A DNA stretch of 38,070 bases from Thermoplasmata archaeon (GTDB taxonomy: Archaea; Thermoplasmatota; Thermoplasmata; Lutacidiplasmatales; UBA184), in NCBI GenBank assembly GCA_030037395.1, contig JASHRJ010000115.1, positions 1 through 38,070 of the forward strand, in the 5' to 3' direction. This document shows positions 22,286 to 28,354 of this stretch, piece by piece (position 1 is the stretch's first letter; each line of letters opens with the position of its first letter). Under the pieces are notes generated by a model. It was not told the DNA's origin and made no database searches. It saw only the letters and a program-made list of their open reading frames with translations. Position numbers and translations under genes: made by a program.

Positions 22286-22857
22286 GGGGGCCCTCCCGAT
22301 CCGTAGTTGACCAGCAGGAGCGACAGCGGAAGATCGGCGACCGACCACGTGTGCGGCGGGTTCTCCCCCGGCGTGTACGGGCAGCTGGCGAGCTCGAGGC
22401 TCTCGTCCGAGAGGTTCTCGTTGACCAGGCCGAAGGCGATCTCCCCCGCGTAGACGGTCCGAACGCCGCCCTGGTCGTAGATCGCCGTCGCGTTCAGGAC
22501 GACCGCGGTGGCGTTCGTGCCGACGTTCATCTCGAGGAGGTCGGTCTCGTTCGTGATCGTCCAGTTGAGCGGGGTCGTCGGGCAGCCGCCGCTCCACACG
22601 AACCCGGTGCCGAGCCCGACGCGGATCTCCGAGTACGCCACGTCGGATCCAACCGCGTGGACGTAGAACTTGGTGGTCGGCCCTCCGATCACCCGGTAGA
22701 CGGTAAGCTCGGCGTGGGCCGCGAGCGGCGAGGGACCGCTCGCCAGCAGGACCGGGGTGAAGACGATCAGGGCCACCAGGATCGCCGCCGCGCCCACGAA
22801 CGGCAGCGGAGCCACTCGGCCGAGCCGGCCGCCGGGTACCGGGCGCCGGGCGCTCAC
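22282..22857 (-). CDS. Secreted or membrane-anchored ectodomain protein with multiple N-glycosylation sequons
   Basis: GTG start overlapping the ubiX stop; signal/TM PLPFVGAAAILVALIVFTPVLLASG; sequons NWT, NET, NAT, NAT, NLS. Confidence 0.72.
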   Translation of the reverse strand: MSARRPVPGGRLGRVAPLPFVGAAAILVALIVFTPVLLASGPSPLAAHAELTVYRVIGGPTTKFYVHAVGSDVAYSEIRVGLGTGFVWSGGCPTTPLNWTITNETDLLEMNVGTNATAVVLNATAIYDQGGVRTVYAGEIAFGLVNENLSDESLELASCPYTPGENPPHTWSVADLPLSLLLVNYGSGGPP

Positions 22858-23429
22858 CCGGCCCCCTCCTTCCAGCCCCGGTACAGGGTGTGCGCGACCC
22901 CCAGGTGGTCGAGCACCTTGCCGGCGAGGTAGTTCGTCACGTCGTCGATGCTCCGGGGCTTCAGGTAGTACGCCGGGGCCGCCGCCAGGACCACCACCCC
23001 GAGCTCGCTGAGGGTGGCCAGTTGCCGCAGGAGGATCGTCGGCATCGGGGTCTCCCGAGGTACGAGCACGAGGGTCCGCCGCTCCTTGAGGTGCACGTGC
23101 GCGGCCCGGGTCAGGAGGGTGTCGGCGAGCCCGAGCGAGATCTTCGCGGCGGTCGACGCCGAGCACGGCACGACGACCATCCCCCGGGTGGGCCGCGAAC
23201 CGCTGGCGATCGGCGCGCCGAGGTCGTCGTCTCCGTAGACCGTGTCCGCGAAGCGTGCCAGGGCTGCCGGCTCGAGGCCCGCCTCCTCGCGGAGCACCTC
23301 GAGCCCCGCCCGCGAGGCGACGAGCGCGACCGGCCGACCGGCCGCGCGCAACCCCTCGAGCACCTTGACCGCGATCGGGGCCCCGCTCGCCCCCGAGACT
23401 CCGACGACGAACGGCCCGTCCTCCTGCAC
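22854..23429 (-). CDS. ubiX: UbiX/Pad1-type flavin prenyltransferase
   Basis: FVVGVSGASGAPIAVKVLEGL, VVPCSASTAAKISLGLADTLLTRAAHVHLKERRTLVLVPRETPMPTILLRQLATLSELGVVVLAAAPAYYLKPRSIDDVTNYLAGKVLDHLG; GTG start. Confidence 0.94.
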   Translation of the reverse strand: MQEDGPFVVGVSGASGAPIAVKVLEGLRAAGRPVALVASRAGLEVLREEAGLEPAALARFADTVYGDDDLGAPIASGSRPTRGMVVVPCSASTAAKISLGLADTLLTRAAHVHLKERRTLVLVPRETPMPTILLRQLATLSELGVVVLAAAPAYYLKPRSIDDVTNYLAGKVLDHLGVAHTLYRGWKEGAG

Positions 23430-23472: not shown

Positions 23473-24660
23473 ATGACGGTTCGCGGGGCGGGAGGCGTGG
23501 GGCAGCGGGCGGCGGTCGTGGGGGCGGGGCACAGTCGGTTCGGGGCCGTGCCCGAGGGGCCCCGGGCGCTGCTGAGGACCGCGCTGGAAGGGGCGTTGGC
23601 GAGCGTCGATCGCGGGCTGGACCGCCGCACGATCGAGCGCGGGTACCTTGCCACCCTCGGCTTCGGCGGCTGGCAGATCGGCAACGCCTCCGCCGTCGTC
23701 GCAGAGGAGCTCCGGTGCCCCGGCCTGCCGACGGTCCGGATCGAGAACGCCTGCGCCTCCGGCGGCTTCGCGGTCCAGGAGGCGGCGCGGGCGATCGGCT
23801 CGGGGGCCGCCGACCTGGCGATCGTGGCGGGGCTCGAGAAGATGACCGACGTCTCCTCCGCGCGGCGGCGGTACTGGCTCGGCGTCAGCGGCGACACCGA
23901 GTGGGAGCGCCAGGCCGGCCTCACGTTCGCCGGGGTCTACGGGCTGATCGCCTCCCAGTACCTCGCCCGGTACCGCGTGCCGCCCGAGGCGCTCGCGGCG
24001 GTCGCCGTCAAGGCCCACGAGAACGGCGCGCTGAACCCGAACGCGCACTTCCAAAAGCGGATCTCGCGGGAGCAGGCCGCCGCCGGTCCGAAGGTGGCCG
24101 ACCCGCTGGGGCTCTACGACTGCTGTCCCGTCAGCGACGGCGCGGCGGCCGTCCTGCTCGCCTCCGAGGCCACGGCGCGCCGCTACACCGACACGCCGGT
24201 CTTCGTGGACGGGGCCGGAGCGTCGTCCGACTTCCTCGCCGTGCAGGAACGCCCGGACCTCCTTGGGTTCGCGGCGAGCCGCCGCGCCGCCGCGGCGGCG
24301 TACCGTGCCGCCGGCTGCCGTCCCGCCGACGTGTCGCTCGTCGAGGCGCACGACTGCTTCACCATCGCGGAGCTGCTCGCCCTCGAGGACCTCGGCCTCG
24401 CGCCCCCCGGCGCCGCCGGCGCGATGACCCTCGCCGGGGCGACGCGCCGGGACGGTGCCCTCCCCGTCAACCCGGACGGCGGGCTCAAGGCGAAGGGGCA
24501 CCCGATCGGGGCGACCGGGGTCTCCCAGATCTACGAGATATTCCAACAGCTCCGCGGTCACGCCGGCCCCCGGCAGGTCCCGAACGCGCGGCGCGCCGTC
24601 GCGCACAACGTGGGCGGCGCCGGCGCCACGGCAGCCGTCACGATCCTCTCCGTGGGGTGA
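23473..24660 (+). CDS. SCP2-type thiolase / archaeal acetyl-CoA C-acetyltransferase
   Basis: Nucleophile IENACASGGFAVQEA; VEAHDCFTIAELLALEDLGL; NPDGGLKAKGHPIGATGVSQIYEIFQQLRG; AHNVGGAGATAAVTIL. Confidence 0.92.
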   Translation: MTVRGAGGVGQRAAVVGAGHSRFGAVPEGPRALLRTALEGALASVDRGLDRRTIERGYLATLGFGGWQIGNASAVVAEELRCPGLPTVRIENACASGGFAVQEAARAIGSGAADLAIVAGLEKMTDVSSARRRYWLGVSGDTEWERQAGLTFAGVYGLIASQYLARYRVPPEALAAVAVKAHENGALNPNAHFQKRISREQAAAGPKVADPLGLYDCCPVSDGAAAVLLASEATARRYTDTPVFVDGAGASSDFLAVQERPDLLGFAASRRAAAAAYRAAGCRPADVSLVEAHDCFTIAELLALEDLGLAPPGAAGAMTLAGATRRDGALPVNPDGGLKAKGHPIGATGVSQIYEIFQQLRGHAGPRQVPNARRAVAHNVGGAGATAAVTILSVG

Positions 24661-24663
24661 ACG

Positions 24664-25701
24664 ATGGCCCGGGGGATCGTGCGCGCCGGGGTCTACCTAC
24701 CGGCGTTCACCGACGGCCGCCGGCGGGTGAGGGGGCCGGACGAGGACGACTTCACGCTCGCCGCGACCGCGCTCGAGCGGGCCGTCGGCCTCGGCGCCGG
24801 TCCCGCGAACGAGGCGGCGCTGCTCCCGGTCGGCTTCGCGGTCCCGCCGGAGCTTCCGATCTTCGCGCGCCTCCTCGGTACTTCGCTGCGGCTGGACGAT
24901 GCGAGCGGGCGTCCGGGGGGCCTCGCGGCGGCGATCGCCGACGCGAGCCGCCGTCGGGGGCCGGCATGGGTCGTGGTCGTTGCTTCCGACCGGGACCGTT
25001 CCGCGGTCGGGCCCCCCGGCGAGGGCGCGGTCGCCATTCTCTTCGACGACGAGGGCGCGGTCGCCGCCCCGGAACCCGACGGGGCCACCCCGGCGCCCGG
25101 GGCCGCGGAGGGTGGCCTCGGCGCCGCCCTCGCTTACCTGAGCTCCGTCCGCCGCGACGCGGTCGGAGCTCGCGCCCGGCCGGATCCCACGTTGGGTCGG
25201 CCGGTGCCGGGGGCGCCCGCCGACGATCGCCCGCCGCCGCCGTCGGTCTCCCAGGGCGCGTTCGTCCCCGCGCCTCGGTATGCCGAGAGCCAGCCGAGCC
25301 GCTGGAGGTTCGTCGCCGAGCGATGCGCCGCCTGCGGCCTCCGGACCTTTCCGGCCCGGGGAAGGTGCCCCTCGTGCGGCGCAGCCGAGGGCCTGCGGCG
25401 CGAGTCGCTGCCGACGGAGGGGGGTCAGGTGGTCGCCGCCACGTGGATCGCCCCGGGCGGCCAACCGACAGAGTTCGACGCCCAGGTGGAGGGCAGCGGA
25501 CCGTACGGGGTCGTGCTCGCGGAGATCGCGCCGGACGCTCGCGTCACCCTGATGGTCGCCGACGCAGGGCGCGACGAGATCGCCGTCGGTTGCCGGGTCG
25601 ATACGGTGCTGCGGCGGCTCTACCCCATCGAGGGTGCCTGGCGGTATGGGCGCAAGGCGGTGCCTGCGACGGCGGCGGGGGCGAGCGCGCCGATTCGCTA
25701 G
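24664..25701 (+). CDS. Degenerate HMG-CoA-synthase-like domain fused to a DUF35 (rubredoxin-like Zn ribbon + OB fold) domain
   Basis: N-term GIVRAGVYLPAFTDGRR...DEDDFTLAATALERAV resembles archaeal HMGCS N-terminus; C-term ERCAACGLRTFPARGRCPSCGAAEGLRRESLP...GPYGVVLAEIAPDARVTLMV is a DUF35 pattern; 3 nt after the thiolase stop. Confidence 0.78.
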   Translation: MARGIVRAGVYLPAFTDGRRRVRGPDEDDFTLAATALERAVGLGAGPANEAALLPVGFAVPPELPIFARLLGTSLRLDDASGRPGGLAAAIADASRRRGPAWVVVVASDRDRSAVGPPGEGAVAILFDDEGAVAAPEPDGATPAPGAAEGGLGAALAYLSSVRRDAVGARARPDPTLGRPVPGAPADDRPPPPSVSQGAFVPAPRYAESQPSRWRFVAERCAACGLRTFPARGRCPSCGAAEGLRRESLPTEGGQVVAATWIAPGGQPTEFDAQVEGSGPYGVVLAEIAPDARVTLMVADAGRDEIAVGCRVDTVLRRLYPIEGAWRYGRKAVPATAAGASAPIR

Positions 25702-26069: not shown

Positions 26070-26492
26070 ATGTCCCTCCTCGAAGCGCCCTGGATCTCGC
26101 GTCACCGCCGCGGGCTCCGCCCGCTCGTCTATCACCTCCTCTGCCAGGGGGCCAAGACCGGTGCCGAGTTGATGGACGACATAGAGAGGATGAGCCGCGG
26201 GTTCTGGCGCCCGTCCCCCGGCTCGATCTACCCCCTTCTCGAAGAGATGACCCGCGACGGGGTGGTAAAGCGGGGCGCCGACGGCCGCTACTCGCTCACC
26301 GCGCCGGCGTCGGCGGAGCGGGGGTGGGGGCCCGGGAGGTTCGGCCCCCGCACCGTCGAAGAGGCGGTCGTGGAGCTCCGGGGCCTCCTCGCCTACCTGG
26401 AAGACCTCAAGCGGAGCCGCGCGGAGGAGTTCCAGCACGGCCTTCCGGCGATGAAGGAGATCGCCTCGAGGCTGGCCCGGATCGCCGAGTAG
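26070..26492 (+). CDS. PadR-family transcriptional regulator
   Basis: PLVYHLLCQGAKTGAELMDDIERMSRGFWRPSPGSIYPLLEEMTRDGVVKRGADGRYSLT: PadR winged-helix signature. Confidence 0.92.
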   Translation: MSLLEAPWISRHRRGLRPLVYHLLCQGAKTGAELMDDIERMSRGFWRPSPGSIYPLLEEMTRDGVVKRGADGRYSLTAPASAERGWGPGRFGPRTVEEAVVELRGLLAYLEDLKRSRAEEFQHGLPAMKEIASRLARIAE

Positions 26493-26498
26493 TTCACC

Positions 26499-27527
26499 AT
26501 GGGAGCGAAGGACCCGGCCGGATCGATCGTCGCGGGCGAGCTCACGAAGACCTACAACGGCACCGTGCGCGCCGTCCGGGGCGTTTCGTTCGCCGTCCGG
26601 CCGGGCGAGGTCTACGGCTTCCTCGGGCCGAACGGGGCGGGCAAGACGACGACGGTCTCGATGCTCAGCGCCGGCCTGCGGCCCACCTCGGGGCGCGCCA
26701 CGGTCGACGGCGTCGACGTGGGGGCTGAGCCGGATACGGTGAAGCGCCGGATCGGGGTCGTCTTTCAGGAGTCGACCGCCGACGGGGACCTCACCGGACG
26801 CGAGAACCTCGAGCTGGCGGCCGCGCTCTACTCCGTCCCGCGCAACGAGGTCCGGTCCCGGGTCGACGGCCTGCTCGAACGCATGCAGATCGGCGACGCC
26901 GCCGACCGCCTCGCGAAGACGTACTCGGGGGGCATGCGCCGTCGGCTCGAGCTCGCCGCGGGGATCGTCCACTCCCCCCGGGTGCTCTTCCTGGACGAGC
27001 CGACCCTCGGCCTCGACCCGCAAGGGCGCGCAGGGTTCTGGAAGTACGTGCTGGAGCTGCGCCAGGAGCACCAGATGACGGTCTTCGTCACCACCCACTA
27101 CTTGGAGGAGGCGGACGGGATGTGCGAGCGGGTCGCCATCATCGACCACGGGACGATCGTCGCCGCGGGCACCCCGGGCGAGCTGAAGGACCGCCTCGGG
27201 GGCGACATCGTCACCGTCCGCCCCTCGGTGCCGAATCCGTCGCTGGCGGAGCTTCTCGCCCAGGTCCCCGGGGTCGTCGCCGCCGTCGCGCAGGACGGCA
27301 GTTGCCGGCTCAAATGCACGAACGGCGAGGCGCTGGTGCCCGAGATCGTCGCGGCGTGCGTCCGCGCCGGCGTCGGCCTGCAGGGAGTCTCGCTCAAGCG
27401 CCCGAGCCTGGACGAGGTGTTCCTGGAGTTCACCGGCCGCGAGTTCCGAGAGGACGAGGGGCTCAGCGCCACCGACCGCGCCGTGATGGTCGGCCGGGTC
27501 CGACAGCAGCTCGGGGGCCGCCGATGA
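26499..27527 (+). CDS. ABC transporter ATP-binding protein (DrrA-like exporter)
   Basis: YGFLGPNGAGKTTTVSML (Walker A), TYSGGMRRRLELAAGIVHSPRVLFLDEPTLGLDPQGR (signature, Walker B), TTHYLEEAD. Confidence 0.96.
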   Translation: MGAKDPAGSIVAGELTKTYNGTVRAVRGVSFAVRPGEVYGFLGPNGAGKTTTVSMLSAGLRPTSGRATVDGVDVGAEPDTVKRRIGVVFQESTADGDLTGRENLELAAALYSVPRNEVRSRVDGLLERMQIGDAADRLAKTYSGGMRRRLELAAGIVHSPRVLFLDEPTLGLDPQGRAGFWKYVLELRQEHQMTVFVTTHYLEEADGMCERVAIIDHGTIVAAGTPGELKDRLGGDIVTVRPSVPNPSLAELLAQVPGVVAAVAQDGSCRLKCTNGEALVPEIVAACVRAGVGLQGVSLKRPSLDEVFLEFTGREFREDEGLSATDRAVMVGRVRQQLGGRR

Positions 27528-28354
27528 TCCGGGAGACCCTCGCGCTGACCCGGCGGGAGCTCCTCCGGCTCGGCCGCAACCCGCAGGCGATCGTGACGTC
27601 GCTCCTGCTCCCGATCCTCTACCTGCTGCTGTTCGGCCAGGCGCTCAACTTCGGCCGCCTGTTCTCGAGCAACCCGGCCGAGTTCGTCCCGTACGTGAAC
27701 GGGGCCCCGACCTACTTCAGCTACTTTGCCGCCGGGATGGCCGGCTTCGTCGCCGTGACCGCCACGTTGTTCATCGGCGCGAACGTGATCTTCGACCGGC
27801 TGTTCGGGGTCCTGAAACGAATCGCCTCGACGCCCGCCTCGGCGATCTCGATCTTCGGCTCCCGCCTGCTGGCGGGCCTCGTCCAACCGGTCGGGCTCGC
27901 GTTCCTGGTCCTCGGCCTCGCGGTGGCGCTCGGACCCCTCGGGCTGAGCGGACTTCACGTCACCGCGAGCGTCGGGGTCGTGGCGGCGGGCGAGATCCTC
28001 CTCGCGATCGTGATCCTGTCGGTGATGTTCGCCTCGCTGTTCCTTGCGATCGGCTTCTCGGTCGAGCAGCCCCAGACGTACTTCGCGGTCGTGAACGCGA
28101 TCAACCTGCCGGTGCTGCTCACCTCTGCGGCCCTCTACCCGTGGGGGATCCTCCCCGGGTGGATGCAGGTGATCGCCTCGTACAACCCGATCACCCTCGC
28201 GGTGACGGTCCTGCGACTCGACCTGTTCTCGGGGGCGGCGGCGTACTACCCGTACTCCGCGGGGATCTACCTGCTCGGCCTGCTAGGGTGGGCGGCGGCG
28301 ATGATCCTGCTCGCGACGCTCCTCGCCCGGCGGGCGCTCGCGCCGCGGCAGTAG
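27524..28354 (+). CDS. ABC-2 type transporter permease
   Basis: MIRETLALTRRELLRLGRNPQAIVTSLLLPILYLLLFGQAL...; six hydrophobic segments; ATGA overlap with the ATPase gene. Confidence 0.94.
   Translation: MIRETLALTRRELLRLGRNPQAIVTSLLLPILYLLLFGQALNFGRLFSSNPAEFVPYVNGAPTYFSYFAAGMAGFVAVTATLFIGANVIFDRLFGVLKRIASTPASAISIFGSRLLAGLVQPVGLAFLVLGLAVALGPLGLSGLHVTASVGVVAAGEILLAIVILSVMFASLFLAIGFSVEQPQTYFAVVNAINLPVLLTSAALYPWGILPGWMQVIASYNPITLAVTVLRLDLFSGAAAYYPYSAGIYLLGLLGWAAAMILLATLLARRALAPRQ

Follow-up and report, generated by a model that had tools for sequence, protein, structure and literature searches.

The window analysed here, a 38,070-nucleotide stretch comprising one contig of a Thermoplasmata MAG (1.58 Mb, 83.8% complete) from the uncultured soil archaea of Lutacidiplasmatales, described as an order in PMC9287336, encodes a fusion protein in which a predicted degenerate half of the HMG-CoA synthase (HMGS) fold precedes a DUF35 domain. 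As an enzyme, this protein is not an HMG-CoA synthase. It is likely a pseudoenzyme subunit, acting as a non-catalytic scaffold or CoA-site partner of the live thiolase encoded next to it, with thiolysis in β-oxidation as the most likely process. The fusion is the end of a series that leads from unfused Cys-less HMGS homologues (HMGS') through full-length fusions and fusions with a shrunken C-terminal half to the half-domain. Beyond what an earlier note, made from the sequence alone, had proposed, the HMGS' lineage survives unfused and at full length, its C-terminal half has been lost recurrently, and the thiolase of the mevalonate locus is itself inactivated, to judge from its residues. In a literature search, with most subscription papers outside its reach, neither the fusion nor dead Thermoplasmatota mevalonate thiolases were found to be described.

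Domain structure of the fusion protein

The earlier note had recognized a thiolase gene followed by a single HMGS-like/DUF35 fusion, and this arrangement is correct (Table 1); the fusion ATG lies 3 nt downstream of the thiolase stop codon (24658-24660). The note had taken the first ~170 aa as a shortened HMGCS N-terminus. The shortening was borne out, but the extent was not: the protein consists of an HMGS half-fold of ~130 aa, a low-complexity linker of ~65 aa, and a complete DUF35 (zinc ribbon and OB fold).

Table 1. Features of the thiolase/fusion gene pair and its upstream neighbor (positions in the window)
Feature	Position	Strand	Basis
Divergent UbiX-type flavin prenyltransferase	22854..23400 (approximate limits)	-	Conserved cluster 6 upstream; Flavoprotein PF02441 on orthologue
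Partner thiolase (SCP2/PRK06064 class), active site intact	23473..24660 (start 23473 or 23497)	+	Pfam Thiolase_C_1 1.7e-46; motifs
HMGS'-DUF35 fusion protein, 345 aa	24664..25701	+	Translation; 72 relatives extracted; family alignments A1, A3
Predicted degenerate N-terminal half of HMGS fold, residues 1-130, without nucleophilic Cys, DED..T at residues 26-31	24664..25053	+	AF2, Foldseek, hhalign, motif conservation
Variable linker, residues 131-202	25054..25269	+	Low pLDDT, omega, length variation
Rubredoxin-like zinc ribbon of DUF35 (C221, C224, C235, C238)	25324..25377	+	PF12172 zf-ChsH2 7.2e-7; invariant in family
OB fold of DUF35, residues 244-334	25393..25665	+	AF2; Foldseek to 6ESQ DUF35

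As the note had stated, the N-domain contains no Cys: in the translation, Cys occurs only at positions 221, 224, 235, 238 and 310, i.e., in the zinc ribbon and near the C-terminus, and none lies within the first ~195 aa. The 72 extracted relatives were used for alignment and comparison. Across 43 short and 24 long relatives, Cys recurred in four alignment columns only, those of the zinc ligands, and the N-domain has no column of conserved Cys. At the catalytic Glu82 and His positions of HMGS, the window protein has Phe and Pro, respectively, in a short-form alignment that is uncertain there; Glu and His are absent from nearly all fused relatives, and throughout the HMGS' lineage DED is kept but Glu82, Cys114 and His are not. 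The window protein thus lacks the nucleophilic Cys (Cys114 in MtHMGCS), Glu82, His and one of the two fold halves, which supports the conclusion of the note that it cannot use the normal HMGS mechanism. What persists in the N-domain is DED and T (residues 26-28 and 31), invariant in the 43 short relatives and common to live HMGS, PhlA and dead HMGS' homologues. Apart from this motif and a few single residues, the strongly conserved positions of the fusion are in DUF35.

The DUF35 signal is strong. A CxxC...CxxC zinc ribbon is followed by an OB fold, the Pfam zf-ChsH2 match (7e-7) is above the PF12172 cut-off, and the fusion family profile matched the DUF35 chain of 6ESQ at 4e-16. Pfam recognized only the zinc ribbon in the fusion; PF01796 gave no match, and the OB fold was recognized by structure only. 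In NCBIfam, no HMGS model matched the fusion at E<=1, and the curated cut-offs of TIGR00748 and NF003274 were not reached. Two fusions elsewhere, L095 (G083) and L111 (G088), lack even the DUF35 zinc-ribbon cysteines (e.g., GVRSGTIHFPPRGPIMERATG).

The AlphaFold2 model of the fusion, built with 42 relatives, had a pLDDT of 84.6 and a pTM of 0.86. Its N-domain runs E-H-E-H-E-H-E-E (E, strand; H, helix) up to residue ~128 with pLDDT mostly 76-93, followed by a low-confidence linker and then DUF35. The top Foldseek matches in the PDB were DUF35 chains, namely 6ESQ (E 1.6e-8, TM-score 0.83 normalized by target), PhlB, MucB, ChsH2 and BbsA. Below these came many HMG-CoA synthases, including Staphylococcus aureus HMGS (1TVZ; E 2.4e-5, prob 1.00, ~167 columns). 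TM-scores against whole HMGS were low, about 0.28, as is expected for a half-fold. By comparison, the model of a longer relative from Candidatus Lutacidiplasma silvani (L183; pLDDT 88.5) aligned with HMGS and KAS III over ~340 columns, twice the ~170 of the window protein; therefore, the long forms keep both halves and the window protein the N-terminal half only. In hhalign, the N-domain was collinear with a combined HMGS and HMGS' profile (3-135 to 2-171, P 2.7e-4, probability 42%), whereas against canonical HMGS alone only the first 44 columns were aligned. By sequence, accordingly, homology between the short form and HMGS is weak, yet consistent. A thiolase half was rejected as the identity of the N-domain because the thiolase profile gave no match in hhalign. 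Together, these data support the assignment of the N-domain as half of an HMGS fold (~130 aa vs. ~345 aa in HMGS), and the concern raised in the note that it might not model as a thiolase/HMGS fold is answered by the AlphaFold2 and Foldseek results.

Distribution and selection

A strong match to the fusion was found in 31 of the 37 genomes of the genus, with identities of 43-50% for near-full-length matches; G034 has a fragment of the fusion only. Completeness is 56-80% in the six genomes that gave no strong match. A scan of genome contigs returned 80 loci, nearly all from Thermoplasmata archaeon entries and one from Candidatus Lutacidiplasma silvani AcS3-62. The phylogenetic distribution that the note had asked about takes in most of the genus, other Thermoplasmatota and haloarchaea. 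A thiolase gene lies directly upstream of the fusion in 63 of the 64 loci with sufficient upstream sequence, usually at a spacing of -8 to 16 nt.

An assembly deletion, which the note had considered, or a frameshift is ruled out, as dozens of independent MAGs carry the short form. Likewise, the missing C-terminal half is not encoded nearby: the next ORFs are a PadR regulator and an ABC transporter, and a synteny scan found no HMGS-like ORF beside the pair.

Nei-Gojobori omega values between short-form pairs were 0.14-0.35 for the N-core, 0.37-0.79 for the linker and 0.13-0.27 for DUF35. The N-core is under purifying selection, and on these values an unconstrained degenerate N-domain is rejected. 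Given the low omega and the invariant DED..T motif shared with live HMGS and PhlA, the N-domain has been retained and is not junk. The linker site corresponds to the place of the C-terminal HMGS half in full-length relatives, and the distance to the DUF35 start varies from 165 to 295 aa among relatives.

Origin of the fusion from a Cys-less lineage

Three states of the lineage are found among extant genomes. In the first, G041, G054 and G067 carry thiolase, full-length HMGS' and DUF35 as separate genes in a row. In the HMGS' of these unfused trios, both the Cys and the Glu are replaced by Thr, and the G041 protein matched the HMGCS of 6ESQ at 4e-43 and PhlA at 2e-42. The second state comprises full-length or shrunken HMGS'-DUF35 fusions of ~400-500 aa, all without the Cys, on haloarchaeal plasmids (Natronorubrum, Haloferax mediterranei, Haloarcula), in several other Thermoplasmatota families and in other genera of the window's family. 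The third, the half-domain fusion, is that of most of the window's genus. In a FastTree tree of thiolase plus DUF35, in which some nodes are weak, the long forms are basal, intermediates are present, and the topology suggests some four losses of the C-terminal half (in the main clade, in L175, in L184 and in L146/L150/L164). Such naturally graded forms, from full-length pseudo-synthase to half-fold, make it possible to ask what part of a dead subunit its complex still requires.

In two of the unfused trios (L063, G041:C115; L064, G054:C41), in which the Cys of HMGS' is replaced by Thr, the DUF35 gene is followed by genes for two CoA-transferase subunits, a PLP aminotransferase and DapF, and a lysine 2,3-aminomutase-like gene lies upstream. 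This cluster looks like one for amino-acid (possibly lysine) degradation.

Annotation of the lineage calls for caution. The Cys-less HMGS' at L063:9341-10363 scored 275 bits against the curated model NF003274 "hydroxymethylglutaryl-CoA synthase" (cut-off 244 bits), so annotators are warned that this model passes Cys-less HMGS' proteins. Haloarchaeal fusions are annotated as "zinc ribbon domain-containing protein" or "3-hydroxy-3-methylglutaryl CoA synthase"; loci L193:4071-5498 and L194:3083-4501 are traps of this kind, with a haloarchaeal fusion named HMG-CoA synthase.

Partner thiolase and gene neighborhood

The thiolase of the window has Thiolase_C_1/Thiolase_N domains and retains the motifs ENACASG, HDCF and GHPIGATG; its best PDB relatives are 7YVY, 4YZO and 6ESQ_A. 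Cys, HDCF and GHP were present in all partner thiolases of the relatives examined. In the tree, 32 of 32 fall into a single clade (support 0.995), which takes in those of the haloarchaeal pairs and the unfused trios. The window thiolase is not the sole live thiolase of the genome, as two others keep the Cys (C19, C2/C139). A further live thiolase of the genus has the motif ESACSSSS (L208 and L232, G000:C19; L210, G022:C16), and in G022 a DUF35 match of ~142 aa adjoins it, forming a two-component BbsAB-like system.

Within the genus, no other β-oxidation genes cluster with the pair, and its syntenic neighbors are housekeeping genes; the synteny scan found no conserved new partner gene beside it. 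Directly downstream (26070-28354, +), a PadR regulator is followed by a DrrA-like ABC transporter ATPase and permease, a position partly conserved in the genus. A UbiX/UbiD pathway involving the pair found no support. UbiD is encoded on another contig (C92) and is present in 32 of 41 relatives, and UbiX is therefore probably housekeeping and not part of the thiolase/fusion system. A UbiD-family gene lies beside the haloarchaeal pair of L194 (Haloarcula sp. JP-L23); because the UbiD of the window genome is elsewhere, this adjacency and that of UbiX to the window pair are probably a coincidence.

The homologous pairs of H. mediterranei and Natronorubrum adjoin 3-hydroxyacyl-CoA dehydrogenase and enoyl-CoA hydratase genes. 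Judged by gene order, with the MaoC gene HFX_6361 as anchor, HFX_6355 is apparently the dehydrogenase of the H. mediterranei pair; it is reported to be induced during PHA mobilization through β-oxidation (PMC4823750). β-Oxidation genes are common in Lutacidiplasmatales (PMC9287336).

The gene cluster of the mevalonate locus

The note had supposed that the catalytic HMGCS would be encoded elsewhere, and a search of the same genome located it. Contig C106 carries a canonical HMGS-thiolase-DUF35 cluster with a full-length HMGS (C106:4646-5680; TIGR00748, 515 bits) in which Cys (FACKAGT) and Glu are intact. The thiolase of this cluster (L077:5699-6862) has EGGGASG for EAACASG, HDAY for HDCF and GRPFGAVG for GHPxGATG, i.e., the nucleophilic Cys is lost and the His of GHP is replaced by Arg. 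In 44 Thermoplasmatota mevalonate loci, HMGS kept Cys and Glu without exception, and the thiolase Cys was lost in 38 (Gly in 27, Asp in 7, Ser in 3, Glu in 1) and kept in 6. The dead-thiolase/live-HMGS pattern holds across the genus and four other genera of family f1 tested. Mevalonate-cluster thiolases at L033-L062 and L239-L256 often lack the GHP His as well.

On the basis of these residues, we infer that the mevalonate-locus thiolases are inactive. Since one complex has a live synthase with a dead thiolase and the other a live thiolase with a dead synthase, the two are, as read from their catalytic residues, reciprocal pseudoenzymes. Most of the Thermoplasmatota mevalonate loci tested would thus pair a live HMGS with a thiolase unable to use the normal mechanism. 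This challenges the picture of a single channelling complex in isoprenoid synthesis in Thermoplasmatota. Dead mevalonate thiolases are not strictly tied to the pair: they also occur in genomes in which no pair was found (G037-G039 and others), and G067 and G083 have HMGS' or the fusion together with a live mevalonate thiolase.

Proposed function and alternatives

What does a synthase subunit without an active site do? A scaffold or acyl-CoA-binding role, as suggested in the note, is supported by homology and selection. In the proposed mechanism, the ancestor would have been an HMG-CoA synthase within a thiolase/HMGCS/DUF35 complex, whose nucleophile was lost (Cys to Thr) before fusion to DUF35 and trimming to the N-terminal half. 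The DUF35 part would dock onto the thiolase to line and close the CoA/acyl pocket there, with the HMGS half-domain bracing the DUF35-thiolase interface. The C-C bond would be made or broken by the thiolase alone through a Cys/His/Cys mechanism. Thiolysis of a 3-ketoacyl-CoA in β-oxidation is probably the reaction of the pair.

The mirror image of the two complexes makes it attractive to see in the pair the acetoacetyl-CoA source of the mevalonate pathway, replacing the dead thiolase of the HMGS complex, with the two reactions divided between two paralogous complexes by free diffusion or in a mixed assembly. The motifs of the C106 thiolase beside an intact HMGS, opposite to those of the fusion pair, and the recurrence of this pattern across the genera tested favor such a role; however, the genome has two other live thiolases, the association is not strict, and the haloarchaeal context suggests degradation. 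This reading is not required by the data and is considered unlikely. Alternatively, the two reciprocal-pseudoenzyme complexes may cooperate, the fusion complex passing acetoacetyl-CoA to the HMGS complex, perhaps by shared or exchanged subunits, such that division of labor replaces channelling within a complex; this is rather improbable.

Other explanations concern the half-domain itself. Its repeated shrinkage, low sequence identity and relaxed linker could indicate functionless, decaying sequence carried along through the need for DUF35, but the N-core omega of the short forms, the invariance of DED..T and the confident compact fold make decay very improbable. That DED..T has outlasted the active site, being found in live as well as dead homologues, might instead point to a new activity or a new ligand, e.g., acyl-CoA sensing or enzyme recruitment. 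Since strong conservation otherwise lies mostly in DUF35 and no new partner gene is conserved, such a gain of function seems hardly probable at all. The non-catalytic scaffold or CoA-site role beside the live thiolase is thus the preferred reading.

Comparison with known systems

The thiolase and DUF35 of the window are homologous to those of the Methanothermococcus thermolithotrophicus thiolase/HMGCS/DUF35 complex (6ESQ), and unfused HMGS' aligns end to end with its HMGCS. As in that complex, a live thiolase gene adjoins a DUF35 gene; unlike in it, HMGS' has lost Cys, Glu and His and shares a chain with DUF35, and in the window half of it is gone, leaving no live HMGCS subunit for channelling. 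BbsAB (benzoylsuccinyl-CoA thiolase, 7PXP), Ltp2-ChsH2 (DUF35) and Sal-Shy (DUF35) also have a thiolase-fold subunit working with DUF35, but none has an HMGS-derived domain, and Ltp2 and Sal are aldolases. In the haloarchaeal pairs (e.g., H. mediterranei pHME505), as in the window, a same-clade thiolase is followed by a fusion of Cys-less HMGS' and DUF35; however, their fusions (~473 aa) have both HMGS fold halves, and the record assigns them no function.

PhlABC, the MAPG/DAPG acyltransferase (5M3K, 9SKH), and MucABC (9VBO) combine a live thiolase-like subunit with DUF35, as does the window pair. In PhlABC, the HMGS-like PhlA lacks Cys (Gly115) and Glu (Cys83), and the catalytic residues come from PhlC only, yet all three subunits are required (PMC6392133); DUF35 has been described as the scaffold holding such complexes together (PMC12329534). 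The window pair shares the HMGS-like part without Cys and Glu. Unlike it, PhlABC consists of three separate full-length subunits, PhlA being one that serves phenol acylation, whereas the window counterpart is fused, truncated and archaeal. As half of the fold is gone, the HMGS/PhlA dimer interface may be absent and assembly could differ. By analogy, the window fusion may be regarded as a single-chain PhlA-B in which PhlA has been halved.
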